Source: Owenia fusiformis (taxonomy: Eukaryota; Annelida; Polychaeta; Sabellida; Oweniidae). From it: DNA of 64,000 bases. Location: assembly GCA_903813345.2 (NCBI GenBank), contig CAIIXF020000007.1, positions 6,639,730-6,703,729 on the forward strand, written 5' to 3'. Within the stretch, counting starts at the first letter, position 1, and each line of letters opens with the position of its first letter. Below the pieces are notes generated by a model. It ran no database searches and was not told the DNA's origin. It saw nothing but the letters and a program-made list of their open reading frames with translations. Positions 8,084-36,200 of the stretch are shown in pieces. Both the position numbers and the translations under genes were made by a program.

Positions 8084-9713
8084 GTTATTATTATTATTAG
8101 ACTCCAGATTGAAAATCTGGAGTCTATTGCTTTTGCCAGTTTTCTTATTATTCTTTCTTTCCGCGTTTTCTCAGCAACTAGAGGGACTTTCTGAAATCTG
8201 CTTACATAGTTAAAAAGGTAATGAGACCTAGTTTCCCGGAAATTAGGTCAAATTTTTATCTAGGTCAAAGGTCAAAATCTAGGTCAAATTATCATTTTGT
8301 GAATTATCTTTGTCATTTTTCAATATTTTTTCAAAAATTTTTTTTTAACGTGTAGCCAAGAAAAAGACGATTCGACAATGAGATATCAGTTTTTTGATTA
8401 CTTCTACCGATTTTGAGATATTGCGTCCGGAAAGTAGGTCAAACGAAAAAGTTCTCCAAATTCAACGTATGAGTCATGAAATAAGTGTAAAATTTCCTCA
8501 GGAATCCAAATCTGCAAACCAAATTTTGATCCGACTTCCGGTTCGGAAGCTATAGCGTTTTGAAATCGCTAAATTTGGTGCCCATGTTAAGCCAATGGGA
8601 AAAAAGACTTTTTCGAAGTGTAAAATACAAGATATAGACTGAGCACAGCTTAACATAATGAATGCCTATAAAAGAAGGGGACCTCAAAAGCTACCTAGCT
8701 TCAAAATTTGGACACCAAAATGCCTAGGTCAAAATCTAGGTCAAATTCATAGTTTTTCCTTATTTTTACGATTCTGACACTACACTTTAATAATTTGCTT
8801 CAAAATTTTGTATACAGGTAGCAAAGAGTGTACTTATAGTGTTAGCCTTTTGCCGTCAGAAAGTATTTTGACCCACTTTTGAGATATGGTGTCCGAAAAG
8901 TAGGTCAAAATAAAAATTTCTCATAATTTAACATATGAGCCATGAGTTAAGGGTAGAATTTTCTCAGGAATCCGAATCTGCAAACTAAATTTCAATCCGA
9001 CTTTTCGTTGGGAAGTTATGGCGTTTTGAAAGCTCAAAAATCGCTAATTTTGGTGCCCCATGTTATGTCAATGAGAAAAAAGATTTTTTTGAAGTGTAAA
9101 ATACCAGATAAGGACTGAGTACAGCTTAAGATTCTGAAAGTCTATAAAAGAAGGGGACCTGGAAGGCTATCTAGCTTTAAAATTTGGACACCAAAATCCC
9201 TAGGTCAAAATCTAGGTCAAATACATAGTTTTTCCTTATTTTTGCGATTCTGGCACTACACTTTTATGATTTGCTTCAAAATTTTGTATACAGGTAGCAA
9301 AGAGTGGGCTTATAGTGTTAGCCTTTTGCCGTCAGAGAGTATTTTGACCCACTTTTGAGATATGGTGTCCGAAAAGTAGGTCAAAATAAAAATTCTCCAA
9401 ATTTTACATATGAGTTATGAATTAAGGGTAGAATTTTCTCAGGAGTCCGAATCTTTAAACCAAATTTCAATCTAACTTCTGGTTAGATAGTTATAGCGGT
9501 TTGAAGTCTCGAAAAGTCGATATGATGATATCCCCATGTTAAGCCAATGGAGTCGAAGATAAAAAATTGAGAGTTGTCTAAATGTCTAAATTCTAGCTGA
9601 CTCGATCAGCTTATTCTGGATGACTCAGCTTACAAGTATTCTGGATGACTCAGCTTTAAAAAAAGTATTAAATCTGGAGTCTTAAATTGAACTTGTTCAA
9701 TTTACATGTCTAG
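8084..9713 (+). mobile_element. Array element 3
   Basis: A single 5' hairpin module lies at 8099-8125, followed by a body opening with TTTCTCAGCAACTAG and ~475-bp units near 8454, 8930 and 9398. The tail belongs to the type with repeated GATGACTCAGCTTA. The 3' palindrome is at 9684-9703 and CTAG at 9710-9713. Confidence 0.75.
8099..8125 (+). repeat. 5' terminal hairpin module of the main array family
   Basis: AGACTCCAGAT..ATCTGGAGTCT folds into an 11-bp stem with a 3-5 nt loop and is followed by ATTGCTTTTGCCAGTTTTC. Further copies: 11361-11386, 11415-11439, 17797-17822, 17851-17875, 17903-17929, 19819-19843, 23791-23816, 23848-23873, 25329-25355 and 25380-25405. The right arm equals the 3' subterminal motif of the element. 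Confidence 0.88.
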
Positions 9714-12891: not shown

Positions 12892-14966
12892 TTATTATTA
12901 TTCTTCTTCTTCTTCCTCCTTCCCAGATTTCTCACCAACTAGAAGAGCTTACTTTAAGCTGCTTACATGATTAACTAGGGAATGTATCTGGCTTTCTGGG
13001 AAATGAGGTCAAATTTTTATCTAGGTCAAAGGTCAAGAACTAGGTCAAATCCAGTACTTTGTCACTTTTTCCCATTATCTCGGTCGTCCTTCAATATTTT
13101 TGATCCTGGTTTTTTTCATTGTGTTCCTCATAAAAAAGTAGAAAACCTAGGGTCGATTTAGTTTTTTGGTATCTCAAACCGATTTCGAGATATCAGTGTC
13201 CGAAAACGAGGTCCAAAAAAAATTTCACCGAATCCAATGTCCAGGATATCAGTCTTATGGGAAATCTTCTCAGGATTCCGAATATGAAAACCAAATTTCG
13301 ATCTGACTACCGGTTCAGAAGTTATGGCGTTTTGAAAATTCAAAAATCGCTAAATTTGGTGCCCCATGTTAATTCAATGGGAAAAAATATTTTTTTGAAG
13401 TGTAAAATACGAGATATAGACTAAGCACAGCTAAACATAATGGAAGCCCATAAAAGAAAGGGACCACAAGACCTTCTTTTCATAAAAATTTGGACACCAA
13501 AATGCCTAGGTCAAAATCTAGGTCAAATTCAAAGTTTTTCCTTATTTTTGCGATTCTGACACTACAGATTAATTATATTCTTCGAAAATTTGTGTACATG
13601 TAGCCAAGAGTGTGCTTATAGTGTTAGCCTTTTGCCGTCAGGAAGTATTTTGACCCACTTTTGAGATATGGTGTCCGAAAAGTAGGTCAAACTAAAAAGT
13701 TCTCCAAATTTAACGTATGAGTTATGAATTAAGGGTAGAATTTTCTCAGGAATCCAAATCTGCAAACTAAATTTCAATCCGGCTTTTGGTTTGGAATTTA
13801 TGTCGTTTTGATAGCTCAAAAATCGCTAAATTTGGTGCCTATGTTATGGCAATGGGAAAAAAGATTTTTTTGAAGTGTAAAATACAAGATATAGACTGAG
13901 TACAGCTTAATTTAATGAAAGCCTATTAAAGAAGGGGACCTCTAAGGCTACTTAGCTCCAAAATTTGGACACCAAAATGCCTAGGTCAAAATCTAGGTCA
14001 AATTTATAGTTTTCCCTTATTTTTGCGATTCTGACACTATATTTAAATGATTTGCTTTAAAATTTTGTATACAGGTAGCAAAGAGTATGCTAAAAGTGTT
14101 AGCGTTTTGCCGTCAGAAAGTATTTTGACCCACTTTTGAGATATGGTGTCCAAAAAGTAGGCCAAAGTAAAAAGTTTTCCAAAATTAACGTATGAGTTAT
14201 GAATTAAGGGTAGAATTTTCTCAGAAATCTAGATCTGCAAACCAAATTTCGATCCGACTACTTGTTCTGAAGTTATGGCGTTTTGAGATCTCAAAAATCG
14301 CTAAATTTGGTGCCCCATGTTAAATCAATGGGACCGAATAATTTTTTGAAGTGTAAAAATACGAGATATAGAATGAGTACAGCTAAACATAATGAAAGCC
14401 CATAGAAGAAGGGGACCTCAAAAGCTACTTTCCTTCAAAGTTTGGACACCAAAATACCTAGTTTAAAAAATCTAGGTCAAATTCATAGTTTTTTCTTATT
14501 TTGCGATTCTGACACTACACTTCAATGATATTCTCCGAAATTTTGTATACTTGTAGCAAAAATTGCAATCCGACCCCCGGTTTAGATTCTACGCCATTTT
14601 GAAGTTTGAAATTCGCACTTGCCAGTATTCACGATGCAGATTGATCAAATATACTTTCAAAAATTCCTGCATACCCTACTTTACCTCTCTACCTACTCAG
14701 CTACTTATTTGACTACTTACTCAATTACTTAATTAGTTATTACTTACTTAGCAACTTACTCAGCTACTAACTCAGGTACTTACTCAGCTACTTACTCAGC
14801 TACCTACTCAGCTTTTTACTCAGTTACTTACTCAGCTACTTACTCAACTACTACTAAGGTACTTACTCAGCTAATTACTCAGTTACTTACTCAGCTCTTT
14901 ACTGATCTATCTAGGTAAAATAAATCTGGAGTCTTAAATTGAACTTGTTCAATTTCACAAATCTAG
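12892..14966 (+). mobile_element. Array element 6
   Basis: There is no 5' hairpin. Units begin near 13225, 13703 and 14178. An internal deletion joins TTGTAGCAAA to AATTGCAATCCG at about 14560, removing most of one unit. The ACTCAGCTAC minisatellite and the 3' palindrome at 14936-14955 follow. Element 15 carries the same deletion. Confidence 0.75.
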
Positions 14967-17788
14967 TTATTATTCTTCTTCCTCCTTCCCAGATTTCTCA
15001 CCAACTAGAAGAGCTTACTTTAAGCTGCTTACATGATTAACTAGGGAATGTATCTGGGATGATGGGAAATTAGGTCAAATTTTTATCTAGGTCAAAGGTC
15101 AAGAACTAGGTCAAATCCGGTACTTTGTCACTTTTTCCCATTATCTCGGTCGTCCTTCAATATTTTTGATCCTGGTTTATTTCATTGTGTTCCTCATAAA
15201 AAAGTAGAAAACCTAGGGTCGATTTAGTTTTTTGGTATCTCAAACCGATTTCGAGATATCAGTGTCCGAAAACGAGGTCCAAAACAAATTTCACCGAATC
15301 CAATGTCCGGGATATCAGTCTTATAGGAAATTTTCTCAGGATTCAGAATCTGAAAACCAAATTTCGATCTGACTTCCGGTTCAGAAGTTATGGCGTTTTG
15401 AAAATTCAAAAATCGCTAAATTTGGTGCCCCATGTTAATTCAATGGGAAAAAATATTTTTTTGAAGTGTAAAATACGAGATATAGACAAAGCACAGCTAA
15501 ACATAATGGAAGCCAATAAAAGAAAGGGACCACAAGACCTTCTTTTCATAAAAATTTGGACACCAAAATGCCTAGGTCAAAATCTAGGTCAAATTCAAAG
15601 TTTTAACTTATTTTTGCGATTCTGACACTATACTTTAATGATTTGTTTCCAAATTTTGTAGACAGGTAGCGAAGAGTGTGCTAATAGTGTTAGCCTTTTG
15701 CCGTCAGAAAGTATTTTGACCCACTTTTGAGATATGGTGTCCGAAAAGTAGGTCAAAATAAAAAGTTCTCCAAATTCAACGTATGAGTTGTGAATTAAAG
15801 GTAAAATTTTCTCAGAAATCCGAATCTGCAAACCAAATTTCGATCCGACTACCGGTTCGGAAGTTATGGCGTGTCCAAAAAGTAGGTCAAAATAAAAAAA
15901 ATTCAAAATTTAACGTATATGTTATGAATTAGGGGTAGAATTTTGTCAGGATTCAGAATCTGAAAACCAAATTTCGATCTGACTTCCGGTTCAGAAGTTA
16001 TGGCGTTTTGAAAATTCAAAAATCGCTAAATTTGGTGCCCCATGTTAATTCAATGGGAAAAAATATTTTTTTGAAAGTGTAAAATACGAGATATAGACTA
16101 AGCACAGCTAAACATAATGGAAGCCCATAAAAGAAAGGGACCACAAGACCTTCTTTTCATAAAAATTTGGACACCAAAATGCCTAGGTCAAAATCTAGGT
16201 CAAATTCAAAGTTTTTCCTTAATTTTGCGATTCTGACACTACAGATTATTTATATTCTTCGAAAATTTGTATACATGTAGCCAAGAGTGTGCTAATAGTG
16301 TTAGCCTTTTGCCGTCAGAAAGTATTTTGACCCACTTTTGAGATATGGTGTCCGAAAAGTAGGTCAAACTAAAAAGTTCTCCAAATTTAACGTATGAGTT
16401 ATGAATTAAGGGTAGAATTTTCTCAGGAATCCAAATCTGCAAACCAAATTTAAATCCGACTTTTGGTTTGGAATTAATGTCGTTTTGATAGCTCAAAAAT
16501 CGCTAAATTTGGTGCCCCATGTTATGTTAATGGAAAAAAAGATTTTTTGAAGTGTAAAATACAAGATATAGACTGAGTACAGCTTAATATAATGAAAGCT
16601 ATTAAAGAAGGGGACCTCAAAGGATACTTAGCTCCAAAATTTGGACACCAAAATGCCTAGGTCAAAATCTAGGTCAAATTTATAGTTATCCCTTATTTTT
16701 GCGATTCTGACACTATATTTAAATGATTTGCTTTAAAATGTTGTATACAGGTAGCAAAGAGTATGCTAATAGTGTTAGCGTTTTGCCGTCAGAAAGTATT
16801 TTGACCCACTTTTGAGATATGGTGTCCAAAAAGTAGGCCAAAGTAAAAAGTTTTCCAAATTTAACGTATGAGTTATGAATTAAGGGTAGAATTTTCTCAG
16901 AAATCTAGATCTGCAAACCAAATTTCGGTCCGACTACTTGTTCTGAAGTTATGGCGTTTTGAGATCTCAAAAATCGCTAAATTTGGTGCCCCATGTTAAA
17001 TCAATGGGACCGAATAATTTTTTGAAGTGTAAAAATACGATATAAAGAATGAGTACAGCTAAACATAATGAAAGCCCATAGAAGAAGGGGACCTCAAAAG
17101 CTACTTTCCTTCAAAGTTTGGACACCAAAATACCTAGTTCAAAATCTAGGTCAAATTCATAGTTTTTTTTTATTTTGCGATTCTGACACTACACTTCACT
17201 GATATTCTCCGAAATTTTGTATACTTGTAGCAAAGAGTGTGCTAATAATGTAACATTTTGCCGTCAATAAGTTTTTTGACCCACTTTTGAGATATGGTGT
17301 CCGAAATGTAGGTCAAAATAAAAAATCTCCAATTTTAAAGTATGAGTTATGAATTAGGGGTAGAATTTCCTCAGGAATCCGGATCTGAAATTAAAATTGC
17401 AATCCGACCCCCGGTTTAGATTCTACGCCATTTTGAAGTTTGAAATTCGCACTTGCCAGTATTCACGATGCAGAGTGATCAAATATACTTTCAAAAATTC
17501 CTGCATACCCTACTTTACCTCTCTACCTACTCAGCTACTTATTTGACTACTTACTCAATTACTTTATTAGTTATTACTTACTTAGCAAGTTACTCAGCTA
17601 CTAACTCAGGTACTTACTCAGCTACCTACTCAGCTTTTTACTCAGTTACTTACTCAGCTACTTACTCAACTACTATTAAGGTACTTACTCAGCTAATTAT
17701 TCAGTTACTTACTCAGCTCTTTACTGATCTATCTAGGTCAAATAAATCTGGAGTCTTAAATTGAACTTGTTCAATTTCACAAATCTAG
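14967..17788 (+). mobile_element. Array element 7
   Basis: About five ~475-bp units and one ~133-bp truncated unit are followed by the ACTCAGCTAC minisatellite (17520-17725), the 3' palindrome at 17758-17777 and CTAG at 17785-17788. Confidence 0.75.
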
Positions 17789-19739
17789 TTATTATTAGAC
17801 TCCAGATGAAAATCTGGAGTCTATTGCTTTCGTCAGTTTTCTTTATTATTAGACTCCAGATGAAATCTGGAGTCTATTGTTTTTGCCTGTTTTCTTATTA
17901 TTAGACTCCAGATTGAAAATCTGGAGTCTATTGCTTTTGCCAGTTTTCTTATTATTATTATTATTTTTCTTTCTTTCTTTCTTTCCGTACACGTTTTCTC
18001 AGTAACTAGAAGAACTTACTTTAACCTACTTACATGGCTAACATAGCCCATCAACCTAGTTTCTGGGAAATTAGGTCAAATTTGTATCTAGGTCAAAGGT
18101 CAAGAACTAGGTCAAATTTAGGTCAAATATTCATTCTGTCAATTATCTTCGTTGCTTATTGTCGTTACTCCTTCATCTTTTTTTCATCATGTAGCTTAGA
18201 AAAAAACAAATCGAGAGTGTGCCATCCGTTTTTTGATTACTCTTAGCGATTTTGAGATATGGCGTCCGGAAAGTAGGTCAAACTAAAAAAGTTCTCCAAA
18301 TTTAACATATGAGCTATGGAATAAGGGTAGAATTTCCTCAGGAATCCGAATCTGCAAACTAAATTTCGATCCGACTTCCCGTTTGAAAGTTATGGCGTTT
18401 TGAAATTTCGAGAAAAATCGATCTGATGTTATCCTGATAGAAAGTCAAGGAAAAAAGATTTTTTTGAAGTGTAAAATACGAGAGATAGATTGAGTACAGC
18501 TTAAGATAATGCATTCCTATAAAAGAAGGGGACCTCAAAAGCTACCTAGTTTCAATATTTGGACACCAAAATGCCTAGGTCAAAATCTAGGTCAAATTCA
18601 TAGTTTTTCCTTATTTTTGCGATTCTGGCACTACACTTTTAGGATTTGCTTCAAAATTTTGTATACAGGTAGCAAAGAGTGTGCTAATAGTGTTAGCCTT
18701 TTGCCGTCAGAGAGTATTTTGACCCACTTTTGAGATATGGTGTCCGAAAAGTAGGTCAAAATAAAAAAATCTCCAAATTTAACATATGAGTTATGAATTA
18801 AGAGTAGAATTTTCTCAGGAATCCGAATCTGCAAATCAAATTTCGATCCGACTTCCGGTTTCAAAGTTATGGCGTGTCCGAAAAGTAGGTCAAAATAAAA
18901 ATTCGCCAAATTTAACGTATGAGTTATGAATTAGGGGTAGAATTTTGTCAGGAATCCGAATCTTTAAATCAAATTTCGATCCGACTTCCGATTCGGAAGT
19001 TATGGCGTTTTGAAATTTCGGAAAATTGATCTGATGGTATCCTGATAGAAAGTCAAGGAAAAAAGATTTTTTTGAAGTGTAAAATACGAGATATAGATTG
19101 AGTACAGCTTAAGATAATGAATTCCTATAAAAGAAGGGGACCTCAAATGCTACCTAGTTTCAATATTTGGACACCAAAATGCCTAGGTCAAAATCTAGGT
19201 CAAATTCATAGTTTTTCCTTATTTTTGCGATTCTGGCACTACACTTTTAGGATTTGCTTCAACATTTTGTATACAGGTAGCAAAGAGTGTGCTAATAGTG
19301 AGAGCCTTTTGCCGTCAGAAAGTATTTTGACCCACTTTTGAGATATGGTGTCCGTAAAGTAGGTCAAAATAAAAAGTTCTCATAATTTAACTTATGAGTT
19401 ATGAATTAAGGGTAGAATTTTCTCAGGAATCCAAATCTGCAAACCAAATTTCAATCCGACTTCCGGTCAAAAATTCCTACTTACCTACCTACTTACCTAC
19501 CTACTCGGCTACCTACTTAGCTACCTACTCAGCTACCTACTCAGCTACTTACTCAGCTACCTACTCAGCTACTTACTCAGCTACCTGCTCAACTGCTTAC
19601 TCAGCTACCTACTCAGCTACTTACTCAATTCCTTAATCATCTACTTACTCAGCTTCCTACTCAGTTACTTACTCAGCTCTTTACTCAAGTAAATCAATCT
19701 GGAGTCTTAAATTGAACTTTGTTCAATTTACCAATCTAG
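17789..19739 (+). mobile_element. Array element 8 with three 5' hairpin modules
   Basis: Hairpin modules sit at 17797-17822, 17851-17875 and 17903-17929, each followed by ATTG(C/T)TTT..GTTTTCTT and a TTATT spacer. The body units begin near 18290, 18770, 18903 (short) and 19380. A minisatellite lies at 19480-19680. The 3' palindrome with TTT loop is at 19709-19729. Confidence 0.75.
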
Positions 19740-20990
19740 TTATTATTATTATTAGAATGCCGGTTTCGAAGAAACGGCATTCTATAGTTTTCGCCTTTTT
19801 CTTATTATTATTATTATTAGACTCCAGATGAAATCTGGAGTCTATTGTTTTTGCCTGTTTTCTTATTATTTTTATTATTCTTCTTTTTTCTTCCTCCTAA
19901 CAGATTTTCTCTCCAACTATAACATCTTACTTAATCCAACTTACATGGTTAACTAAACACTGTATCCGGCTTTCTGGGAAATTAGGTCAAATTTTTATCT
20001 AGGTCAAAGGTCAAAAACTAGGTCAAATCTTACATTTTCAACATTCTTCATCATATCTTCGTCAATATTCTTCGTAACTCCTTCATCTTTTTTTCATCGT
20101 GTAGCTTAGAAAAAGGCAAATCAAAGATATGACATCAGAATTTTGATTACTCTTACCGATTTTGAGATATGGCGTCCGGAAAGTAGGTCAGAACAAAAAG
20201 TTCTCCAAATTCAACATGTGAGTTATGAAATAAGTGTTAAATGATCTCAGGAATCCGAATCTGCAAACCAAATTTGGATCGGACTTCCGGTTCAGAAGTT
20301 ATGGCGTTTTGAAAGCTCAGAAATCGCTAAATTTGGTGCCTATGTTAAGTCAATGGGAAAAAAGACTTTTTCGAAGTGTAAAATACAAGATATAGACTGA
20401 GTACAGCTTAACATAATGAATGCTTATAAAAGAAGGGGACCTCAAAAGCTACATAGCTTCAAAATTTGGACACCAAAATGCCTAGGTCAAAATCTAGGTC
20501 AAATTCATAGTTTTTCCTAATTTTACGATTCTGACACTACACTTTAATAATTTACTTCAAAATTTTGTATACAGGTAGCAAAGAGTGTGCTAATAGTGTT
20601 AGCCTTTTGCCGTCAGAAAGTATTTTGACCCACTTTTGAGATATGGTGTCCGAAAAGTAGGTCAGAATAAAAGGTTCTCAAAATTTAACGTATGAGTTAT
20701 GAATTAAGGGTAGAATTTTCTCAGGAATCAGAATCTTTAAACCAAATTTCGATCCAACTTCTGATTAGATAGTTATAGCGGTTTGAAGTCTCGAAAAGTC
20801 GATATGATGATATCCCCATGTTAAGCCAATGGAGTCGAAGATAACATTCTTAAGAGTTGTCTAAATGTCTATATTCTAGCTGACTCAGCTTATTCTGAAT
20901 GACTCAGCTTACAAGTATTTGGATGACTCAGCTTAAAAAAAGTCTGAAATCTGGAGTCTTAAATTGAACTTGTTCAATTTACATGTCTAG
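19740..20990 (+). mobile_element. Array element 9, preceded by a sister-family 5' hairpin
   Basis: A hairpin of different sequence (AGAATGCCG..CGGCATTCT, 19754-19783) comes first. A standard hairpin follows at 19819-19843, then a short body with units near 20207 and 20685. The 3' palindrome is at 20961-20980. Confidence 0.75.
19754..19783 (+). repeat. 5' terminal hairpin module of the sister family
   Basis: AGAATGCCGGTTTC pairs with GAAACGGCATTCT (one bulge). The right arm CGGCATTCT matches the 3' subterminal motif of element 10 at 22028-22036, and not the main family motif. Confidence 0.8.
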
Positions 20991-22071
20991 TTATTATTAT
21001 TATTCCACGCAAGATTTCTCCGCACACACCGACATGTCAGCTAATTAGCATATACCATCAACCTTGACATGTTCCTGGGCTACAGGGAAATGCCTTCATT
21101 TTTTTAATTAGCCCCTCCCTAATTAGCCAAGGTCAAATCGCAAATTTTTACATTTTTGCACGTACAAGGAGTAACCATTTTTATTTTTTACCCAAAATTT
21201 GCATATGCCATCCCTCACAATTGCCATTTCACATATATTCCGGGTTTTAAAATTGGGTGCCCCAAATTTGAAAAATGGGGCACCCCAGTGGGGCAAAATT
21301 TGAAAACTGTGTATCCGATCCCAATTCTGAGCAGATATAAAGAATAGAAGCCCCTGATTCCAAATATGCTTTCGGTTTTGGAATCCGACCTCTGAGTGAC
21401 CTTGAAAAGGTCAACAAGTTCAAAAATCAAAATCGCTCAAATTGATTCCAAATTGGTACCATTGTATTACACTGTACTCGGATAGAGTAAATTAGGTCAC
21501 CATTTTGACCTTGACTTTTGACATTGACCTTCAAATGACCTCAAAGTTGAAAACTAGGATTTTCATTCCAATTCTTTGCAAGTATGAAGTATGGATGTCC
21601 CTGATTCTAAATATGCTTGTGGTTTTGGAATTTGACCTCCGGGTGACCTTGAAAGGTCAAAAAGGTTAAATTGCTAAAATTGCTCAAATTGATTCGAAAT
21701 TGGTACCATTGTATTACACTGTACTAAACTAGAGTAAATTAGGTCAACATTTTGACCTTGACCTTTGACCTTCACCGTAAAATGACGTAAAACTTATTTC
21801 TTGTTTTACCTGTTCAAGGAGCCACTGTAGTTATTTTTTGCATGCCTTACTCTTCCCATTTAACATATCTCTAGGGTTTATAATTTGGGTGATTTTCATT
21901 CCAATTCTTTGCAAGTATGAAGTATGGATGTCCCTGATTCTAAATATGCTTGTGGTTTTGGAATTCGACCTCTGCGTGACCTTGAAAAAGGTCAATTGTG
22001 CACCGAATTTGCTGCTGCGGCGAGGAACGGCATTCTACGAAATCGCCCCCGTGGCGATTTTAAATGTCTAG
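20991..22071 (+). mobile_element. Array element 10, sister family with different ends
   Basis: The body differs from the rest. It holds three related segments (near 21310, 21560 and 21895), each with CCTGATTC, AATATGCTT and GTGACCTTGAAA. A hairpin GGGTGCCCC..GGGGCACCC lies at about 21255-21286. The 3' end has CGGCATTCT (22028-22036), an 8-bp hairpin AAATCGCC..GGCGATTT (22040-22060) and ATGTCTAGTTATT. Only the last bases match the main family. Confidence 0.72.
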
Positions 22072-23779
22072 TTATTCATTCTTTCTTTCTTTCTTTCCGA
22101 ACACTTTTTCTCAGCAACTAGAAGAACTTACTTTAACCTACTTACATGGCTAACATAGCCCATCAACCTAGTTTCTGGGAAATTAGGTCAAATTTTTATC
22201 TAGGTCAAAGGTCAAGAACTAGGTCAAATTTAGGTAAAATCAACATTCTGTCAATTATCTTCGTTGTTACTTGTGGTAACTCCTTCAACTTTTTTTCAAC
22301 ATGTAGCTTAGAAAAAAACAAATCGAGAGTGTGCCATCCGTTTTTTGATAACTCTTAGCGATTTTGAGATATGGCGTCCTGAAAGTAGGTCAAACTAAAA
22401 AAGTTCTCCAAATTTAGCATATGAGCTATGAAATAAAGGTAGAATTTTCTCAGGAATCCGAATCTGCAAACCAAATATCGATCCGACTTCCCGTTCGGAA
22501 GTTATGGCGATTTGAAAGCTCAAAAATTGCTAAATTTGGTGCCCCATGTTAAGTCAATGGGAAAAAAGACTTTTTTTAATTGTAAAATATGATTTATAGA
22601 CAGAGTGTAGCTTAACATAATGAATTCCTATAATAGAAGGGTACCCAAAAGCTACCTAGCTTCAAAATTTGGACACCAAAATCCCAAGGTCAAAATCTAG
22701 GTCAAATTGATAGTTTTTCCTAATTTTTACGATTCTGACACTACACTTAAATGATTTGCTTCTAAATTTTGTATACAGGTAGCAAAGAGTGTGCTAATAA
22801 TGTAAGCCTTTTGCCGTCAGAAAGTATTTTGACCCACTTTTGAGATATGGTGTCCGAAAAGTAGGTCAAAATAAAAAGTTCTCCAAATTTAACATATGAG
22901 CTATAAAACAAGGTTAGAATTTTCTCAGGAATCCGAATCTGCAAACCAAATTTTGATTTAACTCCCAGGTCGGAAGTTATGGCATTTTGAAAGCTCAAAA
23001 ATTGCTAAATTTGGTGCCCATGTTATATCAATAGGGAAAAATATATTTTTGAAGTGTAAAATACCAGGTATAGACTGAGTACAACTCAACATAATGAAAG
23101 TCTATAAAAGAAGGGGACCTCAAAGGCTACCTAGCTTCAAAATGTGGACACCAAAATGCCAAGGTCAAAATCTAGGTCAAATTCATAGCTTTTCCTTATT
23201 TTTGCGATTCTGACATTACACTTTAATAATTTGCTTCAAAATTTTGTATACATGTAACAAAGAGTGTGCTAATAGTGTTAGCCTTTTGCCGTCAGAAAGT
23301 ATTTTGACCCACTTTTGAGATATGCTCCGAAAAGTAGGTCAAAATAAAAAGTTCTCCAAATTTAACTTATGAGATATGAATTAAGGGTAGAATTTTCTAA
23401 GGAATCCAAATCTGCAAATCAACATTCAATCCGACTCCCAGTTTAGATTCTATGCCATTTTAAAATTCACATTTGTTTAAAATTCACATTTGCCAGTATC
23501 CACAATGCAGATCCATCAAATATACTTTCAACCATTCCTACTTACCTACCTACCTACATACCTACTCGGCTACCTACTTAGCTACCTTCTTCTCAGCTAC
23601 CTACTCAGCTACTTACTCAGCTACCTACTCAGCTACTTACTCAGCTACCTTCTCAGCTACCTACTCAGCTACTTACTCAATTACTTAATCATCTACGTAC
23701 TCAGCTTCCTACTCAGCTCTTTACTCAAGTAAATCAATCTGGAGTCTTAAATTGAACTTTGTTCAATTTACCAATCTAG
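22072..23779 (+). mobile_element. Array element 11
   Basis: It starts with TTATTCATTCTTTC and has units near 22405, 22880 and 23352. A minisatellite occupies 23540-23735. The 3' palindrome with TTT loop is at 23749-23769. Confidence 0.75.
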
Positions 23780-25320
23780 TTATTTTTATTAGACTCCAGA
23801 TGAAAATCTGGAGTCTATTGCTTTTGCCAGTTTTCTTTATTATTATTAGACTCCAGATGTCAATCTGGAGTCTATTGTTTTTGCCAGTATTCTTATTATT
23901 CTTCTTATTATTCTGTAGCAGTTTTTTCAATAACTATGAGGTATCCAGTAAGGACCATAATACAGTTTTTCTAGGTTCAGTATCTAGTTGGTGGGAAATT
24001 GGGTCAAATTTTTATCTAGGTCAAAGGTCAAGAACTAGGTCAAATCCAGTACTTTGTCACTTTTTTCGATTTTCTCAGTCGTCCTTTAATATTTTCGATC
24101 CAGGTTTTTTTCATTGTGTTCCTCATAAAAAAGTAGAATAAAGAAAAACGATTTAAATTTTTGATATCTCGAACCGATTTCGAGATATCAGTGTCCGAAA
24201 ACGAGGTCCGAAAAAAAGTTCTCCGAATTCAATGTCCAGGATGTTAGTCTTATAGGAAATTCCCTGGGGATTCCGAATCTGAAAACCAAATCCGGATCGG
24301 ACTTCCGGTTCGGAAGTTATGGCGTTTTGAAAGCTCAAAAATCGCTAAATTTGGTGCCCATGTTAAGTCAATGGGAAAAAAGATTTTTTTGAATTGAAAA
24401 ATACGAAATATAGACTGAGTTCAGCTTCATATAATCAAAGCCTTTAAAAGAAGGGGACCTCAATAGCCACATAGCATCAAAATTTGGACACCAAAATGCC
24501 TAGGTCAAAATCTAGGTCAAATTCAAAGTTTTTTCTTATTTTTGCGATTCTGACACTAAACTTTAATTAAATTCTTCGAAATTGTGTATACATGTGGCCA
24601 AGAGTGTGCTAATAGCGTTAGCCTTTTGCCGTCAGAAAGTATTTTGACCCACCTTTGAGATATGGTGTCAGAAAAGTAGGTCAAAATAAAAAATTCTCCA
24701 AATTCGACGTTTGAGTTATGAATTAAGAATAGAATTTTCTCAGAAATCCGAATCTGCAAACCAAATTTCGATCCGACTTCCGGTTCCGAAGTTATGGCGT
24801 GTCCAAAAAGAAGGTCAAAATAAAAATTCGCCAAATTTAACGTATGAGTTATGAATTAGGGGTAGAATTTTGTCAGGAATCCGAATCTTTAAATCAAATT
24901 TAGATCCGACTTTCGGTTTGGAAGTTATGGCGTTTTGAAATTTCGGAAAATCGATCTGATGGTATCCTGATAGAAAGTCAAGAGTAGAGAAGAAAATATT
25001 GAAAAATTCATCCATCCTTCATATCTGATCCTATCCTATCCTATCCTTCCTATCATTCCTTGGTATCCTTTCCTTCCTATCCTTCCTATCCTCTCCTATC
25101 ATATCCTTTCTTCCTATTCTGTTCTATCCTATCCTTCTTTCTTATTCTATCCTATTGTTCCTCCCCATTCTATCCTATCCTACCTTCCTATTTTATCCAT
25201 CCATCTTATTCTGGATGACTCAGCTTATTCTGGATGACTCGGCTTATTTTAGATGACTGGGCTTAAAAAAGTCTAGATCTGGAGTCTGAAATTGAACTTC
25301 GTTCAATTTCCAAAGTCTAG
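23780..25320 (+). mobile_element. Array element 12 with pyrimidine-rich tail
   Basis: Two hairpin modules (23791-23816 and 23848-23873) precede units near 24220, 24700 and 24834. The CCTAT-like pyrimidine tract is at 25010-25205 and the TTC-loop 3' palindrome at 25289-25309. It is the same subtype as element 5. Confidence 0.75.
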
Positions 25321-27648
25321 TTATTATTAGACTCCAGATTGAAAATCTGGAGTCTATTGTTTTTGCCTGTTTTCTTATTAGACTCCAGATGAAAATCTGG
25401 AGTCTATTGCTTTCGTCAGTTTTCTTTATTATTATTCTTTCAGAATCTTCCTCCTTCCCAGATTTCTCACCAACTAGAAGAGCTTACTTTAAGCTGCTTA
25501 CATGATTAACTAGGGAATGTATCTGGGATGATGGGAAATTATGTCAAATTTTTATCTAGGTCAAAGGTCAAGAACTAGGTCAAATCCAGTACTTTGTCAC
25601 TTTTTCCCATTATCTCGGTCGTCCTTCAATATTTTTGATCCTGGTTTTTTTCATTGTGTTCCTCATAAAAAAGTAGAAAACCTAGGGTCGATTTAGTTTT
25701 TTGGTATCTCAAACCGATTTCGAGATATCAGTGTCCGAAAACGAGGTCCAAAAAAAATTTCACCGAATCCAATGTCCAGGATATCAGTCTTATAGGAAAT
25801 TTTCTCAGGATTCCAAATCTGAAAACAAAATTTCGATCTGACTTCCGGTTCAGATGTTATGGCGTTTTGAAAATTCAAAAATCGCTAAATTTGGTGCCCC
25901 ATGTTAATTCAATGGGAAAAAATATTTTTTTGAAGTGTAAAATTCGAGATATAGACTAAGCACAGCTAAACATAATGGAAGCCCATAAAAGAAAGGGACC
26001 ACAAGACCTTATTTTCATAAAAGTTTGGACACCAAAATGCCTAGGTCAAAATCTAGGTCAAATTCAAAGTTTTTCCTTATTTTTGCGATTCTGACACTAC
26101 AGATTAATTATATTCTTCGAAAATTTGTATACATGTAGCCAAGAGTGTGCTAATAGTGTTAGCCTTTTGCCGTCAGAAAGTATTTTGACCCACTTTTGAG
26201 ATATGGTGTCCGAAAAGTAGGTCAAACTAAAAAGTTCTCCAAATTTAACGTATGAGTTATGAATTAAGGGTAGAATTTTCTCAGGAATCCAAATCTGCAA
26301 ACCAAATTTCAGTCCGACTATTGGTTTGGAATTTATGTCGTTTTGATAGCTCAAAAATCGCTAAATTTGTTGCCCCATGTTATGGCAATGGGAAAAAAGA
26401 TTTTTTTGAAGTGTAAAATACGAGATATAGACTGAGTACAGCTTAATATAATGAAAGCCTATTAAAGAAGAGGACCTCGAAGGCTACTTAGCTCCAAAAT
26501 TTGGACACCAAAATGCCTAGGTCAAAATCTAGGTCAAATTTATAGTTTTCCCTTATTTTTGCGATTCTGACACTATATTTAAATGATTTGCTTTAAAGTT
26601 TTGTATACAGGTAGCAAAGAGTATGCTAATAGTGTAAGCGTTTTGCCGTCAGAAAGTATTTTGACCCACTTTTGAGATATGGTGTCCAAAAAGTAGGCCA
26701 AAGTAAAAAGTTTTCCAAATTTAACGTATGAGTTATGAATTATGGGTAGAATTTTCTCAGAAATCTAGATCTGCAAACCAAATTTCGATCCGACTACTTG
26801 TTCTGAAGTTATGGCGTTTTGAGATCTCAAAAATTGCTAAATTTGGTGCCCCATGTTAAATCAAAGGGACCGAATAATTTTTTGAAGTGTAAAAATACGA
26901 GATAAAGAATGAGTACAGCTAAACATAATGAAATCCCATAGAAGAAGGGGACCTCAAAAGCTACTTTCCTTCAAAGTTTGGACACCAAAATACCTAGTTC
27001 AAAATCTAGGTCAAATTCATAGTTTTTTTTATTTTGCGATTCTGACACTACACTTCAATGATATTCTCCGAAATTTTGTATACTTGTAGCAAAGAGTGTG
27101 CTAATAATGTAACATTTTGCCGTCAATAAGTTTTATGACCCACTTTTGAGATATGGTGTCCGAAATGTAGGTCAAAATAAAAAAATCTCCAATTTTAAAG
27201 TATGAGTTATGAATTAGGGGTAGAATTTCCTCAGGAATCCGGATCTGAAATTAAAATTGCAATCCGACCCCCGGTTAAGATTCTACGCCATTTTGAAGTT
27301 TGAAATTCGCACGTGCCAGTATTCACGATGCAGATTGATCAAATATACTTTCAAAACTTCCTGCATACCCTACTTTACCTCTCTACCTACTCAGCTACTT
27401 ATTTGACTACTTACTCAATTACTTAATTAGTTATTACTTACTTAGCAACTTACTCAGCTACTAACTCAGGTACCTACTCAGCTACTTACTCAGCTTTTTA
27501 CTCAGTTACTTACTCAGCTACTTACTCAACTACTACTAAGGTTCTTACTCAGCTAATTACTCAGTTACTCACTCAGCTCTTTACTGATCTATCTAGGTCA
27601 AATAAATCTGGAGTCTTAAATTGAACTTGTTCAATTTCACAAATCTAG
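25321..27648 (+). mobile_element. Array element 13
   Basis: Two hairpin modules (25329-25355 and 25380-25405) are followed by units near 25760, 26240, 26715 and 27185, a minisatellite at 27375-27590 and the 3' palindrome at 27618-27637. Confidence 0.75.
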
Positions 27649-29539
27649 TTATTATTCTTTCTTCCTCCTAACAGATTTTCTCTCCAACTATAACATCTTA
27701 CTTAATCCAACCTACATGGTTAACTAGGGAATGTATCTGGCTTTCTGGGAAATTAGGTCAAATTTTTATCTAGGTCAAAGGTCAAGAACTAGGTCAAATC
27801 CAGTACTTTGTCACTTTTTCCCATTATCTCGGTCGTCCTTCAATATTTTTGATCCGGTTTTTTTTCATTGTGTTCCTCATAAAAAAGTAGAAAAGTTAGG
27901 TTATTTAGTTTTTTGGTATCTCAAACCGATTTCGAGATATCAGTGTCCGAAAACGAGGTCCAAAAAAAAGTTCTCCGAATCCAATGTCCAGGATATCAGT
28001 CTTATAGGAAATTTTCTCAGGATTCCGAATCTGAAAACCAAATTTCGATTTGACTTCCGGTTCAGAAGTTATGGCGTTTTGAAAATTCAAAAATCGCTAA
28101 ATTTGGTGCCCCATGTTAATTCAATGGGAAAAAATATTTTTTTGAAGTGTAAAATACGAGATATAGACTAAGCACAGCTAAACATAATGTTAGCCCATAA
28201 AAGAAAGGGACCACAAGACCTTCTTTTCATAAAAAATTTGGACACCAAAATGCCTAGGTCAAAATCTAGGTCAAATTCAAAGTTTTTCCTTATTTTTGCG
28301 ATTCTGACACTACAGATTAATTATATTCTTCGAAATTTTTTATACATGTAGCCAAGAGTGTGCTAATAGTGTTAGCCTTTTGCCGTCAGAAAGTATTTTG
28401 ACCCACTTTTGAGATATGGTGTCCGAAAAGTAGGTCAAACTAAAAAGTTCTCCAAATTTTACGTATGAGTTATGAATTAAGGGAAGAATTTTCTCAGAAA
28501 TCCAAATCTGCAAACCAAATTTCAATCCGACTTTTGGTTCGGAAGTTATGTCGTTTTGAAAGCTCAAAAATCGCTAAATTTGGTGCCCCATGTTATGGCA
28601 ATGGGAAAAAGATTTTTTTGAAGTGTAAAATACGAAATATAGACTAAGAACAGCTTTACATAATGAAAGCCTATAAAAGAAAGGGACCTCAAAATCTAGC
28701 TAGCTTCACAATTTGGACACCAAAATGCCTAGGTCAAAATCTAGGTCAAATTTATAGTTTTAACTTATTTTTGCGATTCTGACACTACACTTTAATTATT
28801 TGCTTCAAAATTTTGGATACAGGTAGCAAAGAGTGTGCTAATAGTGTTAGCCTTTTGCCGTCAGAAAGTATTTTGACCCACTTTTGAGATATAGTGTCCG
28901 AAAAGTAGGTCAACATGAAAGTTTCTCCAAATTTAACGTATGAGTTATGAATTAAGGGTAGAATTTTCTCAGGAATCCGAATCTGCAAATCAAATTTCAA
29001 TCCGACACTCGGTTTGGAAGTAATGGCGTTTTGAAAAATTAAAAAATTGGTATTTTGATATCCCATGTTATGTCAATTATCTTTGTCACTATTCGTCATT
29101 ATTCCTTTATCTTACTTTCATCATGTAGCTTAAAGACAGTCCTTTCATTATTGTAACTGTCTTTTTTGATTACTCTTACCGATTTTGAGGAATGGCGTCC
29201 GGAAAGTAGGTCAACACAAAAAGTTCTCAAAATTTAATGTATGAGTTATGACACAAACGTAGAATTTTCTCAGAAATTCGAATCTGCAAACCAAATTTCG
29301 ACCCAAATTCTGGTTAGATAGTTATAGTTGTTTGAAGTCTCGAAAAGTCGATATTATGATATCCCCATGTTAAGCCAATGGAGACGAAGATAACTTACTT
29401 AAGAGTTGTCTAAATGTCTGTATTCTAGATGACTCAGCTTATTCTGAATGGCTCAGCTTACAGTATTTTGGATGACTCAGCTTAAAAATAGTTTTAAATC
29501 TGGAGTCTTAAATTGAACTTGTTCAATTTACATGTCTAG
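27649..29539 (+). mobile_element. Array element 14
   Basis: There is no 5' hairpin. Units begin near 27965, 28450, 28925 and 29225. The tail is of the GATGACTCAGCTTA type and the 3' palindrome lies at 29510-29529. Confidence 0.75.
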
Positions 29540-31609
29540 TTATTCTTCTTCTTCTTCCTCCTTCCCAGATTTCTCACCAACTAGAAGAGCTTACTTTAAG
29601 CTGCTTACATGATTAACTAGGGAATGTATCTGGCTTTCTGGGAAATTAGGTCAAATTTTTATCTAGGTCAAAGGTCAAGAACTAGGTCAAATCCAGTACT
29701 TTGTCACTTTTTCCCATTATCTCAGTCGTCCTTCAATATTTTTGATCCTGGTTTTTTTCATTGTGTTCCTCATAAAAAAGTAGAAAACCTTGGGTCGATT
29801 TAGTTTTTTGGTATCTCAAACCGATTTCGAGATATCAGTGTCCGAAAACGAGGTCCAAAAAAAATTTCACCGAATCCATTGTCCAGGATATCAGTCTTAT
29901 GGGAAATGTTCTCAGGATTCCGAATCTGAAAACCAAATTTCGATCTGACTTCCGGTTCAGAAGTTATGGCGTTTTGAAAATTCAAAAATCGCTAAATTTG
30001 GTGCCCCATGTTAATTCAATGGGAAAAAATATTTTTTTGAAGTGTAAAATACGAGATATAGACTAAGCACAGCTAAACATAATGGAAGCCCATAAAAGAA
30101 AGGGACCACAAGACCTTCTTTTCATAAAAATTTGGACACCAAAATGCCTAGGTCAAAATCTAGGTCAAATTCAAAGTTTTTCCTTATTTTTGCGATTCTG
30201 ACACTACAGATTAATTATATTCTTCGAAAATTTGTGTACATGTAGCCAAGAGTGTGCTAATAGTGTAAGCCTTTTGCCGTCAGGAAGTATTTTGACCCAC
30301 TTTTGAGATATGGTGTCCGAAAAGTAGGTCAAACTAAAAAGTTCTCCAAATTTAACGTATGAGTTATGAATTAAGGGTAGAATTTTCTCAGGAATCCAAA
30401 TCTGCAAACCAAATTTCAATCCAGCTTTTGGTTTGGAATTTATGTCGTTTTGATAGCTCAAAAATCGCTAAATTTGGTGCCCCATGTTATGGCAATGGGA
30501 AAAAAGATTTTTTTGAAGTGTAAAATACAAGATATAGACTGAGTACAGCTTAATTTAATGAAAGCCTATTAAAGAAGGGGACCTCGAAGGCTACTTAGCT
30601 CCAAAATTTGGACACCAAAATGCCTAGGTCAAAATCTAGGTCAAATTTATAGTTTTCCCTTATTTTTTCGATTCTGACACTATATTTAAATGATTTGCTT
30701 TAAAATTTTGTATACAGGTAGCAAAGAGTATGCTAATAGTGTTAGCGTTTTGCCGTCAGAAAGTATTTTGACCCACTTTTGAGATATGGTGTCCAAAAAG
30801 TAGGCCAAAGTAAAAAGTTTTCCAAATTTAACGTATGAGTTATGAATTAAAGGTAGAATTTTCTCAGAAATCTAGATCTGCAAACCAAATTTCGATCCGA
30901 CTACTTGTTCTGAAGTTATGGCGTTTTGAGATCTCAAAAATCGCTAAATTTGGTGCCCCATGTTAAATCAATGGGACCAAATAATTTTTTGAAGTGTAAA
31001 AATACGAGATATAGAATGAGTACAGCTAAACATGATGAAAGCCCATAGGAGAAGGGGACCTCAAAAGCTACTTTCCTTCAAAGTTTGGACACCAAAATAC
31101 CTAGTTTAAAAAATCTAGGTCAAATTCATAGTTTTTTCTTATTTTGCGATTCTGACACTACACTTCAATGATATTCTCCGAAATTTTGTATACTTGTAGC
31201 AAAAATTGCAATCCGACCCCCGGTTTAGATTCTACGCCATTTTGAAGTTTGAAATTCGCACTTGCCAGTATTCACGATGCAGATTGATCAAATATACTTT
31301 CAAAAATTCCTGCATACCCTACTTTACCTCTCTACCTACTCAGCTACTTATTTGACTACTTACTCAATTACTTAATTAGTTATTACTTACTTAGCAACTT
31401 ACTCAGCTACTAACTCAGGTACTTACTCAGCTACTTACTCAGCTACCTACTCAGCTTTTTACTCAGTTACTTACTCAGCTACTTACTCAACTACTACTAA
31501 GGTACTTACTCAGCTAATTACTCAGTTACTTACTCAGCTCTTTACTGATCTATCTAGGTAAAATAAATCTGGAGTCTTAAATTGAACTTGTTCAATTTCA
31601 CAAATCTAG
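29540..31609 (+). mobile_element. Array element 15, near-duplicate of element 6
   Basis: It follows element 6 closely from the leader to the 3' end. This includes the internal deletion junction (near 31200), TTTAAAAAATCTAGG, and the minisatellite at 31330-31550. The 3' palindrome is at 31579-31598. Confidence 0.75.
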
Positions 31610-33205
31610 TTATTCTTCTTTTTCTTCCTCCTAACAGATTTTCTCTCCAACTATAACATCTTACTTAATCCAACTTACATGGTTAACTAAAGACTGTATC
31701 CGGCTTTCTGGGAAATTAGGTCAAATTTTTATCTAGGTCAAAGGTCAAGAACTAGGTCAAATCTTACATTTTCAACATTCTTCATCATATCTTCGTCAAT
31801 ATTCTTCGTAACTCCTTCATCTTTTTTTCATCGTGTAGCTTAGAAAAAGGCAAATCAAAGATATGACATCAGAATTTTGATTACTTTTACCGATTTTGAG
31901 ATATGGCGTCCGGAAAGTAGGTCAGAACAAAAAGTTATCTAAATTCAACATTTGAGTTATGAAATAAGTGTAGAATGATCTCAGGAATCCGAATCTGCAA
32001 ACCAAATTTGGATCGGATTTCCGGTTCGGAAGTTATGGCGTTTTGAAAGCTCAAAAATCGCTAAATTTGGTGCCTATGTTAAGTCAATGGGAAAAAAGAC
32101 TTTTTCGAAGTGTAAAATACAAGATATAGACTGAGTACAGCTTAACATAATGAATGCTTATAAAAGAAGGGGACCTCAAAAGCTACATAGCTTCAAAATT
32201 TGGACACCAAAATGCCTAGGTCAAAATCTAGGTCAAATTCATAGTTTTTCCTTATTTTTACGATTCTGACACTACACTTTAATAATTTACTTCAAAATTT
32301 TGTATACAGGTAGCAAAGAGTGTGCTAATAGTGTTAGCGTTTTGCCGTCAGAAAGTATTTTGACCCACTTTTGAGATATGGTGTCCGAAAAGTAGGTCAA
32401 AATAAAAAGTTCTCCAAATTTAACATATGAGCTATGAATTAAGAGAAGGATTTTCCCAGGAATCCGAATCTGCAAACCATATTTCAATCAGACTTTCGGT
32501 TCGGAAGTTATGGCATTTTGAAAGCTCAAAAATCGCTAAATTTGGTGCCCCATGTTATGTCAATGAGAAAAAAGTTTTTTTGAAGTGTAAAATACCAGAT
32601 ATAAACCGAGTACAGCTTAACATTCTGAAAGCCTATAAAAGAAGGGAACCTCGAACGGTATCTAGCTTTAAAATTTGGACACCAAAATGCCTAGGTCAAA
32701 ATCTAGGTCAAATTCATAGTTTTTTCCTTATTTTTGCGATTCTGACATTATACTTTAATGATTTGCTTCGAAATTTTGTATACAGGTAGCATTGAGTGTG
32801 CATATAGTGTTAGCCTTCTGCCGTCAGAAAGTATTTTGACCCACTTTTGAGATATGGTGTCTGAAAGTAGGTCAAAATAAAAAGTTCTCCAAATTTAACG
32901 TATGAGTTATGAATTAAGGGTAGGATTTTCTCAGGAATCAGAATCTTTAAACCAAATTTCGATCCAACTTCTGATTAGATAGTTATAGCGGTTTGAAGTC
33001 TCGAAAAGTCGATATGATGATATCCCCATGTTAAGCCAATGGAGTCGAAGATAACATTCTTAAGAGTTGTCTAAATGTCTATATTCTAGCTGACTCAGCT
33101 TATTCTGAATGACTCAGCTTACAAGTATTTGGATGACTCAGCTTAAAAAAAGTCTGAAATCTGGAGTCTTAAATTGAACTTGTTCAATTTACATGTCTAG
33201 TTATA
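31610..33205 (+). mobile_element. Array element 16, last of the array
   Basis: The leader matches that of element 9. Units begin near 31933, 32410 and 32888, and the tail contains GCTGACTCAGC. The 3' palindrome is at 33171-33190 and CTAG at 33197-33200. TTATAATT follows, then the retrotransposon. Confidence 0.75.
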
Positions 33206-36200
33206 ATTATACTCTTCTCTCAAATGCATGTAACAGATTCAACTGGGAAACAATTGGTTATATCCGCATGGAACGTTAACGGGTTGAATGCATCGAATGT
33301 AAGGCTACATATGCTTTGCGAAAATTCGGATATTGTATGTATAAATGAACATTGGTTATTTGAAGGAAGTCTTAACGAACTACAAAATGTTCATGACAGA
33401 TTCACTTATACAGCTGCTAGTAGTAAATCCTTGGATCCCTTAGATCAGGGCCATGTTATTGGAAATGGTGGGGTTGCAATACTATGGCGGAAGTCACTTA
33501 GTCACTGCATCTTTCCAGTAGTGAAATACAAGACCGATCGAGTGATTGTAATTAAAGTTCTACAGCCCCCCTACAAATGTGTTTATGTCATATGTTGTTA
33601 TCTGCCCCATGCAAACTGTAAAACGGAAAATTTCCTCGAGGTATTAGATTATCTAGAGAACGTTCTTGAAGAGGTATCATCTCAGAACAGTAACTGTGTT
33701 ATAATTGGAGACATGAACGCTCACTTTGGCGATAGTGTAGGTACACGTGGTACAGGTGCAATCTCAAATAACGGTAAACTCCTGAATCAAATGTGTAAAC
33801 GAACTGGTTTGACTCCTATAGATATGTTCCCAATTTGTACGGGACCAACATATACGTTCTTTAGGGATTATACTGGTGAGTCGTACATTGACCATATTCT
33901 TGTCACCGGCGGTCTTGTTTCAAAATGCTTAAATGTAAAAGTGTTTGATGAAGATTTAACAAATATGTCAGATAATTTGCCAATTAAAGTAACTCTAAAT
34001 ATTGAAACTCAACCAGCAGCGAGAAAAAACGAGTCTCGTTCTTATAAGTCACGCCCCGCATGGAATAAAGCTACAGATGAGCACTTGAAACAATATAAGC
34101 AACTGATGAATGTGAAAATTTCTAGCCTGATACGAGATATGAATAAAAGTGGCAGTATGTCAAACATGGACATTGAACTATTTTTTAATGAATTGTCCGA
34201 TATAATTAATGATGTAACCTCCCAGTCCTTACCAAAATCAAGGTTCAACAAACATTTAAAACCATATTGGACGGAGACTGTAAAAGAATGCTTGAAACAA
34301 AAGAAAATGACGTGGAATAGATGGAAGTTCTATGGAAAATCTAGAGAGCCAGAAAATGCATATTGGAAGGCTTACAAGGACGCAAAAAGAATGTTTAGAA
34401 AGGCAATCCGTAGGGCTCAATATGATTTTGAAATTAAGTGTCAAAAGGAAATTGATGACGCTGCAGATTTATCCTTAAACAAGTTTTGGTACTTGATCAA
34501 ACAACGCAAGGGTAATTTGTGTAAATCCATCGCAATACGAAATGATGAAGGACTAGTGCTCACTGAGCCCGATGAAGTACTAATGGAATGGAAGTCCTAT
34601 TTTGAGAAGCTAGTGTCCCTCAAGAAAGATACACCATATGACAGCGAATTTGAAAAGATGATTAATAATGAAGTAGATGAAATGAAACGAGACAGTTTTA
34701 ACAATGACGACGGAGCTTTCACAGAGGCATTAACGTGCAATGAAGTACATCTAATCACATCCAAGTTAAAAAATGGGAAAGCTCCCGGGTGGGATCAAAT
34801 TACACCGGAGCACATTAAGAATGGGGGAGATTTATTAATCCAAGCTCTAACACTTCTGTACAATGAGATGGTACGCACTGAATATGTCCCAGAAAGTTTT
34901 AAGCTAGGACTGCTCATACCTCTCTTCAAGGGTGGTAACAAGGACATCTTATCAAAAGATGACCATCGTGGCATTACATTGATGACCACGTACATGAAAA
35001 TGTTCGAGAGAATTATGATGTCAAGAAGCCAATTATGTGCACAAACAGAAGAGGTTTCAAACATGCAAGGTGTTAACAAGGCCAAATGTTCTAGTCTTCA
35101 CACATCTCTTGTTACAAGAGAAGCAATAGCAACAGGTTTAGAAAACGGTAATAATGTCATTGTGACGTCATTAGACATTAAAAAAGCTTTTGATGGCGTT
35201 TGGCATATTGGGTTGTATCATAAAATGTATAAACAGGGAATAAACGGCAAACTATGGAGAATGCTAAGAAATTGTTATGATGGATATAAATGTGCTATTA
35301 AATTGAATGTGAACATAGACTCAATGTTTAAAGCAGTTAAAGAGGATTTAAATATTCCCCAAGCAATATCTCGGTTTCTAAGTGAAAATGCAAATATTTC
35401 AGATCTGTTTCCTGTGGAGCAGGGTGTGCACCAAGGTGGTGTTTGGTCAATGGAATTATACGCAAGGTACACCAATGAACTACTAAATGAGATATGTGAT
35501 AGTATGACTGGATGTTCTATAGGAAATGTTGTATGTAGCTGCCCCACGTTTGCTGATGACATGAACTTATTAGCATATCATGGTAATACAATGCAGGTTC
35601 TACTGCGTAAAGTTTTTGATTATAGCTGCAGATGGAGATTTCAGTTTCACCCAAAGAAATGTAAGGCCGTTGTGTTTAGTAGAGAGAGAAACCCCCCAAA
35701 ACCAATTCTGAAATTAGGGAATCACATTATTCCCATCGAGAATTCAATAGATCATGTTGGGCTGCCACTTACAAATAGCAATTCAGTAAAAGAATACATG
35801 GACACACGTATCTCGAAAGGAAGACGAGCAATGATTGCCTATTTAGGAACTACAGCCAGCAATAACAATCCAACAAATCCTCTAACAGCGTCAAAGATTT
35901 ACTGGTCAATATGTTTCCCCACTATGACGTATGGAATGAGTCTTTTGCCTCTTAAAGATACGGACTATGACAGGCTAGAGACAGCACACAGGGGAATAGC
36001 AAAGAAGATACAAGGGCTTCCTATCACGACCAGCAACCAGGCAACCATACAACAACTTGGTTGGAGAGACGTAACGTCAAAGATCGTAGTAGACAAAATC
36101 ATGTTAGTGTGGCAATTGTTATCTCTACCAATGAACAATGTATATAAGATGATCGCGATAATGAGAATCATAGCGTACAGAACACGTGATCTAGCTTTAG

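Follow-up and report, generated by a model that had tools for sequence, protein, structure and literature searches.

Two families of repeated elements whose 5′ and 3′ ends differ in step, while their target sequence is shared, raise the question of whether the complementarity between the two ends is functional, and whether it is read as DNA structure or as a protein-binding sequence. The two families occur together in a single stretch of 64,000 nucleotides (the window), where an initial annotation had described a main family and a sister family with distinct terminal motifs. The motifs and coordinates of both sets of ends, including those of the sister at 19754 and 22028, were confirmed with counts far over expectation: AGACTCCAGAT gives 37 matches against 0.04 expected, CTAGTTATT gives 15 against 1.40, and AGAATGCCG with its complement gives three against 0.16 (64 kb, both strands), all well over chance. 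Judged on their sequences, both families are probably non-autonomous rolling-circle transposons of the Helitron2/Helentron type (HINEs), with matched ends and a habit of nesting in a pad that each element carries.

Two element families in one array

The nested elements form an array from 2468 to 33200 (+) that continues upstream of 2468, up to the window edge. It contains 16 3′ ends and 12 5′ hairpin modules, every one of them in + orientation, as would follow from a requirement for the T-rich strand as target. The main family contributes 15 of the 3′ ends and 11 of the modules (ATIRs AGACTCCAGAT/ATCTGGAGTCT), and the sister one of each (AGAATGCCG/CGGCATTCT). With 3′ ends given as the last base of CTAG, those of the main family lie at 2510, 8084, 9713, 11355, 12891, 14966, 17788, 19739, 20990, 23779, 25320, 27648, 29539, 31609 and 33200, and that of the sister lies at 22071; the main 5′ modules are at 8099, 11361, 11415, 17797, 17851, 17903, 19819, 23791, 23848, 25329 and 25380, and the sister module is at 19754. 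Three of the main modules are stacked at 17797–17957 (+) with a spacing of ~53 bp and (TTA)n tracts in between.

Several features of the main elements can be recorded alongside this layout. Six elements of subfamily B carry a 12-bp CTACTTACTCAG tandem array close to the 3′ end (2233–2440, 7807–8014, 14689–14896, 17523–17718, 27383–27578 and 31332–31539), and main bodies hold tandem units of ~475 bp, comparable to the central repeats of HINEs. The element at 8085–9713 has, by eye, a D-like start and an A-type 3′ end, which suggests recombination between subfamilies. A fold-back-like insertion at 5412–7657, inside the B element ending at 8084, consists of inverted arms of ~42-bp repeats with ends GGGTGTCTAC..GTAGACACCC; GGAATCCGGA stands on both of its flanks and reads as a target duplication of 10 bp or slightly less.

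The sister family is represented by a single copy, which the initial annotation had placed at 19754–22076. Both ends are indeed there, but the copy is interrupted by a complete main element of subfamily A. The sister 5′ module (19754–19783, +) is a hairpin, AGAATGCCGGTTTC-GAA-GAAACGGCATTCT, with one bulged G and a GAA loop; AGAATGCCG begins at 19754 (+), and its complement closes the hairpin at 19775–19783 and recurs at 22028–22036. Next come 35 nt of inner flank with the (TTA)n pad (19784–19818, +), the insertion site of the main element at 19819–20990 (+), which has its 5′ hairpin at 19819–19843, 3′ ATIR at 20949–20959, palindrome at 20960–20981 and CTAG at 20987–20990. Beyond it lies the sister body (20991–22025, +), unlike the main bodies and without a counterpart in other array segments by blastn at E up to 1e-20, which leads into the sister 3′ end. 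There the 3′ ATIR AACGGCATTCTA (22026–22037, +) equals the second arm of the sister 5′ hairpin plus one base, so that the reported match between the ends is real and the shared segment is 12 nt long, its 5′ copy running to 19784. The different 3′ palindrome noted for the sister, AAATCGCC..GGCGATTT, is present at 22040–22060 (+), and CTAG followed by TTATT occupies 22068–22076 (+).

Matched ends and their folding

In both families an arm of the 5′ hairpin is repeated directly before the 3′ palindrome as the ATIR, and the sister is an element with changed stem and ATIR sequence at three matched places, its architecture being no different. It had also been held that only ATGTCTAGTTATT is kept between the families. 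This proved incorrect in both directions: the main 3′ ends themselves vary, ATGTCTAG being common only to main subfamily A (5 of 15) while the others read AATCTAG (9) or AGTCTAG (1), and the families additionally share the GAA hairpin loop and, in the 3′ palindrome, its AAAT..ATTT base. They may also share the sequence that follows directly inside the 5′ hairpin, where only 1 of 5000 mononucleotide shuffles matched as well; with the shuffles set against 6 of the 11 main modules and the sequence being T-rich, this result is indicative only.

The ends look constrained at the sequence level. In searches that tolerated two mismatches per arm, the main arms were perfect in 22 of 22 cases at the 5′ hairpins and in 15 of 15 3′ ATIRs. 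Across the 15 main copies, the 11-nt 3′ repeat shows no substitution against ~8 expected from the preceding 400 bp within subfamilies (total tree length 0.73; P(0) ~3e-4), an estimate that probably overstates the constraint because the flanks hold fast-changing short tandem repeats and decayed ends escape the search. The arms of the 3′ palindrome are likewise intact in all 15 main ends, and a palindrome is also present in the sister.

Arm pairing places the 5′ ATIR within a 5′ hairpin in all 12 modules, and when five of these were folded as single-stranded DNA, each folded better than all 200 of its shuffles. For the four of 16 3′ ends that were folded, the palindromes appear in the predicted structures, but 9, 18, 3 and 0 of the 200 shuffles, respectively, fold equally well; the 3′ palindromes are therefore less exceptional in predicted folding than the 5′ hairpins. 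The hairpin loops are GAA in seven modules (the sister among them), GAAA in four and GTCA in one, so that the stem has changed between the families and the GNA/GNNA loop class has not. According to the relevant part of a published account, GNA and GNNA loops form extraordinarily stable DNA mini-hairpins when at least two G–C pairs are present (PMC4686876). The loop is closed by a C–G pair in the sister and by T–A in the main family, and for this reason the published stability is not directly transferable. GAA also stands between the arms of two Fusarium 5′ hairpins, as read from the letters printed in part of PMC5148889, and a literature search joining Helitron with loop terms returned no paper on Helitrons among the matches listed. 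A GNA/GNNA loop as a general feature of Helitron2 elements is thus a lead rather than a result. Within the present sequences, the constant loop class lends separate, if modest, support to the idea that the 5′ end may be recognised as structure.

Nesting in a (TTA)n pad

The target sequence is common to the two families. TTATT follows 15 of the 16 3′ ends (TTATA the remaining one) and directly precedes all 12 5′ modules, which fits the proposal that CTAG-TTATT acts as the end and target signal. (TTA)n tracts are present at every junction. Between 1 and 33200, TTATTATT has 41 overlapping matches, all adjoining modules or 3′ ends, and AATAATAA is absent; the former count describes the location of the tracts and cannot serve as an independent measure of preference, because the distance rule of the script was set around modules and ends. 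TTATT has a further 84 matches outside these places in the same interval, none of them carrying a junction. When elements are excised in silico and their flanks joined, two T's are left over per insertion. They may belong to the element, with A^T as the insertion site if it reads TT..CTAG, T^T if it reads T..CTAGT and T^A if it reads ..CTAGTT, or they may represent a 2-bp duplication.

Between successive 3′ ends lie 15 bodies, of which six begin behind a 5′ module and nine right behind the CTAG of another element. Elements that lie inside others do so at a single position, immediately interior to the 5′ hairpin. For the interrupted bodies ending at 11355, 14966, 23779 and 33200, the blastn alignment with a contiguous relative opens on the base directly following that preceding CTAG, and for those ending at 29539 and 31609 it starts at base 12–14. 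No start-to-start blastn match with a contiguous relative was found for three of the nine, namely the sister, which has no relative within the window by blastn, and the bodies ending at 8084 and 17788, whose top-listed alignment with a contiguous copy starts further in. (The last of the blastn segments carried one extra base.)

Five of the nine interrupted bodies, those ending at 14966, 29539, 31609 and 33200 and that of the sister, were rejoined to an upstream module. Four were left out: by bracket order, the bodies ending at 8084, 11355 and 17788 would have their modules before the start of the window, and for the body ending at 23779 there is no module of matching type. The joined B elements ending at 14966 and 31609 are colinear with a contiguous B element, but have a longer TTA tract and differ in a few adjoining bases; in the joined A element ending at 29539 the tract is shorter than in the contiguous relative, again with some differing adjoining bases. 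The sister join was set against a main element, the sister having no uninterrupted copy for comparison. The most telling of the five joins is that of the A element ending at 33200, which is split by two inserted blocks with a middle piece of pad, TTATTTTTATT (23780–23790, +), between them. Joining the sequence after module 17851 to 23780–23788 and then to the sequence from 31610 restores TTATTTTTATTATTCTTC, an unusual pad that is found uninterrupted at 19866–19883 in the contiguous A element at 19819. The joined pad has one TTA more and one T fewer nearby, and the two elements are 95.3% identical over 928 bp.

The order of modules and ends was also treated as a set of brackets, in plain and in typed form; both are statistically weak, and for this reason neither is used as proof. 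Plain matching pairs 12 of 12 modules with consistent families and leaves four of 16 3′ ends unmatched, their partners being placed before the window start, but every 5′ module also finds a partner in 29.5% of random orders. Module types a–d were defined by small differences taken from contiguous copies (the two c modules being mutually unlike), so that agreement of typed modules with their own contiguous bodies is no test. Among the interrupted main modules, typed pairing yields four of five non-crossing pairs, a score equalled by three of 10 label arrangements.

Plain and typed readings disagree where the typed reading leaves the body ending at 23779 without a module and module 17797 without a body. 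This bears on whether composite moves occurred besides nesting, with some 5′ doublets, such as 17797 and 17851, having moved as a unit that runs from the outer 5′ end as far as the first 3′ terminus encountered. Module 17797 does lack a matching downstream body, whereas 17851 matches the A body that ends at 33200, and part of a study of Fusarium Helitron2-like elements proposes the same process (PMC5148889). However, the mismatch could equally reflect slippage between the 53-bp tandem modules or an assembly collapse, either of which accounts for one extra and one missing module, and we regard composite moves as somewhat unlikely.

Another reading would take the whole array as a rolling-circle concatemer, the tandem product of missed termination or circle amplification rather than of separate insertions. 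Its head-to-tail order and multiple 5′ termini would suit such an origin, and sections of two papers ascribe tandem Helitron arrays to bypassed termination (PMC4067079) and see rolling-circle amplification behind arrays in which multiple 5′ ends go with only one 3′ end (PMC12628747). Here, in contrast, nine 5′ modules are accompanied by nine 3′ ends at 17797–33200, neighbouring units belong to different subfamilies and in one case to a different family, and a main element sits between the sister 5′ module and the sister body. A concatemer is accordingly very improbable. Instead, the array appears to have grown via repeated insertion into a landing strip inside each other's left end, and the nesting is an unusually clear example of its kind.

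Proposed mechanism and relation to known systems

A mechanism that would unite these features begins with a RepHel protein supplied from elsewhere, which would recognise the 5′ hairpin in its folded single-stranded form and unwind towards the 3′ end. There the 3′ repeat might compete for the 5′ arm or bind the same protein surface; cleavage behind CTAG and ligation of the strand to a T-rich target strand would follow. Relatives would land in the (TTA)n pad, sparing the ends of the host element; because each element carries such a pad just inside its own 5′ hairpin, the stack could build with its ends undamaged. More broadly, and only as a speculative proposal that we consider unlikely to hold as a whole, the Helitron2-type 5′ end might be read as a folded single-stranded mini-hairpin with a constant GNA/GNNA loop, the stem and ATIR serving as a replaceable address that links an element's own 5′ and 3′ ends. 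Families could then share a pad and nest in one another without cross-family processing, the stack being a way of growing and not an accident.

The pairing step of this mechanism has a direct competitor, in which a transposase site is present as two direct copies, one being the second 5′ arm and the other the 3′ repeat, and both change together to fit the same protein, with no pairing between them. The 3′ repeat is the same as the second 5′ arm in sequence and orientation, in the sister as in the main element compared, and is invariant among main copies; because of this identity, protein binding at both ends predicts the same covariation. A double-stranded site would not, however, need the first arm to be equally invariant (22 of 22 arms), nor the loop class to be kept while the stem changes. 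For the pairing step we consider the protein-site explanation possible but less likely than not. The paired change is a single observation, since one sister copy lies within the 64-kb window, and with two families amounting to one independent change, pairing and protein binding are inseparable here. The claim that paired change establishes functional 5′/3′ complementarity therefore stands in part: the change is coupled, and, from the comparison of copies, the matched ends are a true feature and probably functional, but protein binding would have produced the same pattern. Recognition as structure retains the separate, modest support of the loops.

The cited parts of the literature derive the role of Helitron2 ends from comparing sequences. 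Two families with a shared target and a triply matched, differing end make a clean pair with which pairing, a protein site and an address could be told apart, and the same pair could show whether the hairpin loop is a recognised feature. The nested pads further supply empty sites for mapping the insertion point.

Placement among known elements follows from the ends. An ATIR lies upstream of the 3′ hairpin, the 5′ hairpin includes an ATIR, a 3′ palindrome is present and the insertion sequence is T-rich, as in the Helitron2/Helentron–HINE group. The canonical Helitron1 form, with a 5′ TC and no 5′ hairpin, is ruled out by the 5′ hairpin in 12 of 12 modules; the 5′ end is AGA preceded by TT rather than TC, and the CTAG 3′ end fits the Helitron1 CTRR, with the A^T insertion of Helitron1 among the three registers that the joins allow. 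With regard to RepHel, no such family was among the Pfam hits for 11 of the 19 window ORFs of at least 100 aa. The ORF beside the array was considered as a RepHel candidate and rejected, Pfam giving reverse transcriptase instead: it encodes 1192 aa (33224–36802) with endonuclease/exonuclease/phosphatase and reverse transcriptase domains of the non-LTR retrotransposon type, and starts 23 bp downstream of the array's final 3′ end. A rhodopsin-family receptor ORF (58054–58905, +) and a thioredoxin ORF (61692–62084, –) lie further along the window. Together with the reverse transcriptase ORF they give the window a eukaryotic appearance, and the receptor points to an animal as host.

Pattern searches extended the comparison. 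The main 3′-end pattern had no match in viral contigs, and a second pattern matched two contigs, both with a short palindrome ~70 bases before the match and both lacking the window's ATIRs before it and an ATIR-like hairpin copy in the available upstream sequence. The 5′ hairpin pattern had no match in prokaryotic genome contigs. No further family was noticed by eye in the + strand list of 9-bp hairpins for the whole window.

Matched ends are a defining feature of a known group, Helitron2, and the cited portion of Bao and Jurka (2013) already describes its ATIRs, 5′ hairpin and compensatory changes between two related elements, and proposes 5′/3′ pairing (PMC3627910). Worth retaining from the present locus are its clear nesting and a loop class that does not change. 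By the same portion of that paper, the elements resemble Helitron2 in their short ATIRs, in a 5′ hairpin that includes the 5′ ATIR and in a 3′ ATIR just before the 3′ hairpin, and differ from it in three respects: no RepHel gene is among the ORFs tested here, the target is (TTA)n rather than TTTT^T/C, and 31–34 nt rather than about 20–30 separate the end of the 3′ repeat from the last base of CTAG (PMC3627910). With HINE/DINE-1 elements, as described in part of Thomas et al. (2014), they share palindromic subTIRs, a 3′ palindrome and a T-rich target; the 3′ CTAG sets them apart, and is reported there for proto-Helentron-Pi, which has a 5′ TT, a 3′ CTAG and insertion in A^T (PMC4067079).

The oyster Cg_HINE, in the passages cited, has a microsatellite near the 5′ module and central tandem repeats (PMC7492417), comparable to the ~475-bp and 12-bp units here. 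In contrast to HINE/DINE-1 elements as covered in these sources, the microsatellite in the 5′ module is here the insertion place itself. To judge by the title of a reference, (GAAA)n microsatellites are on record as the insertion site of a Helitron-like element, and the available parts of the literature found on Helitron self-insertion, nesting and tandem arrays yielded no stack that uses a pad carried in the element's own 5′ module. A parallel is offered by FoHeli1/2 of Fusarium, for which the cited sections of Chellapan et al. (2016) print GAA between the 5′ hairpin arms and discuss multiple 5′ termini and self-insertion; their 3′ end is ATTTT, and their nesting and tandem order are single cases, whereas the present array is a 30-kb stack (PMC5148889).
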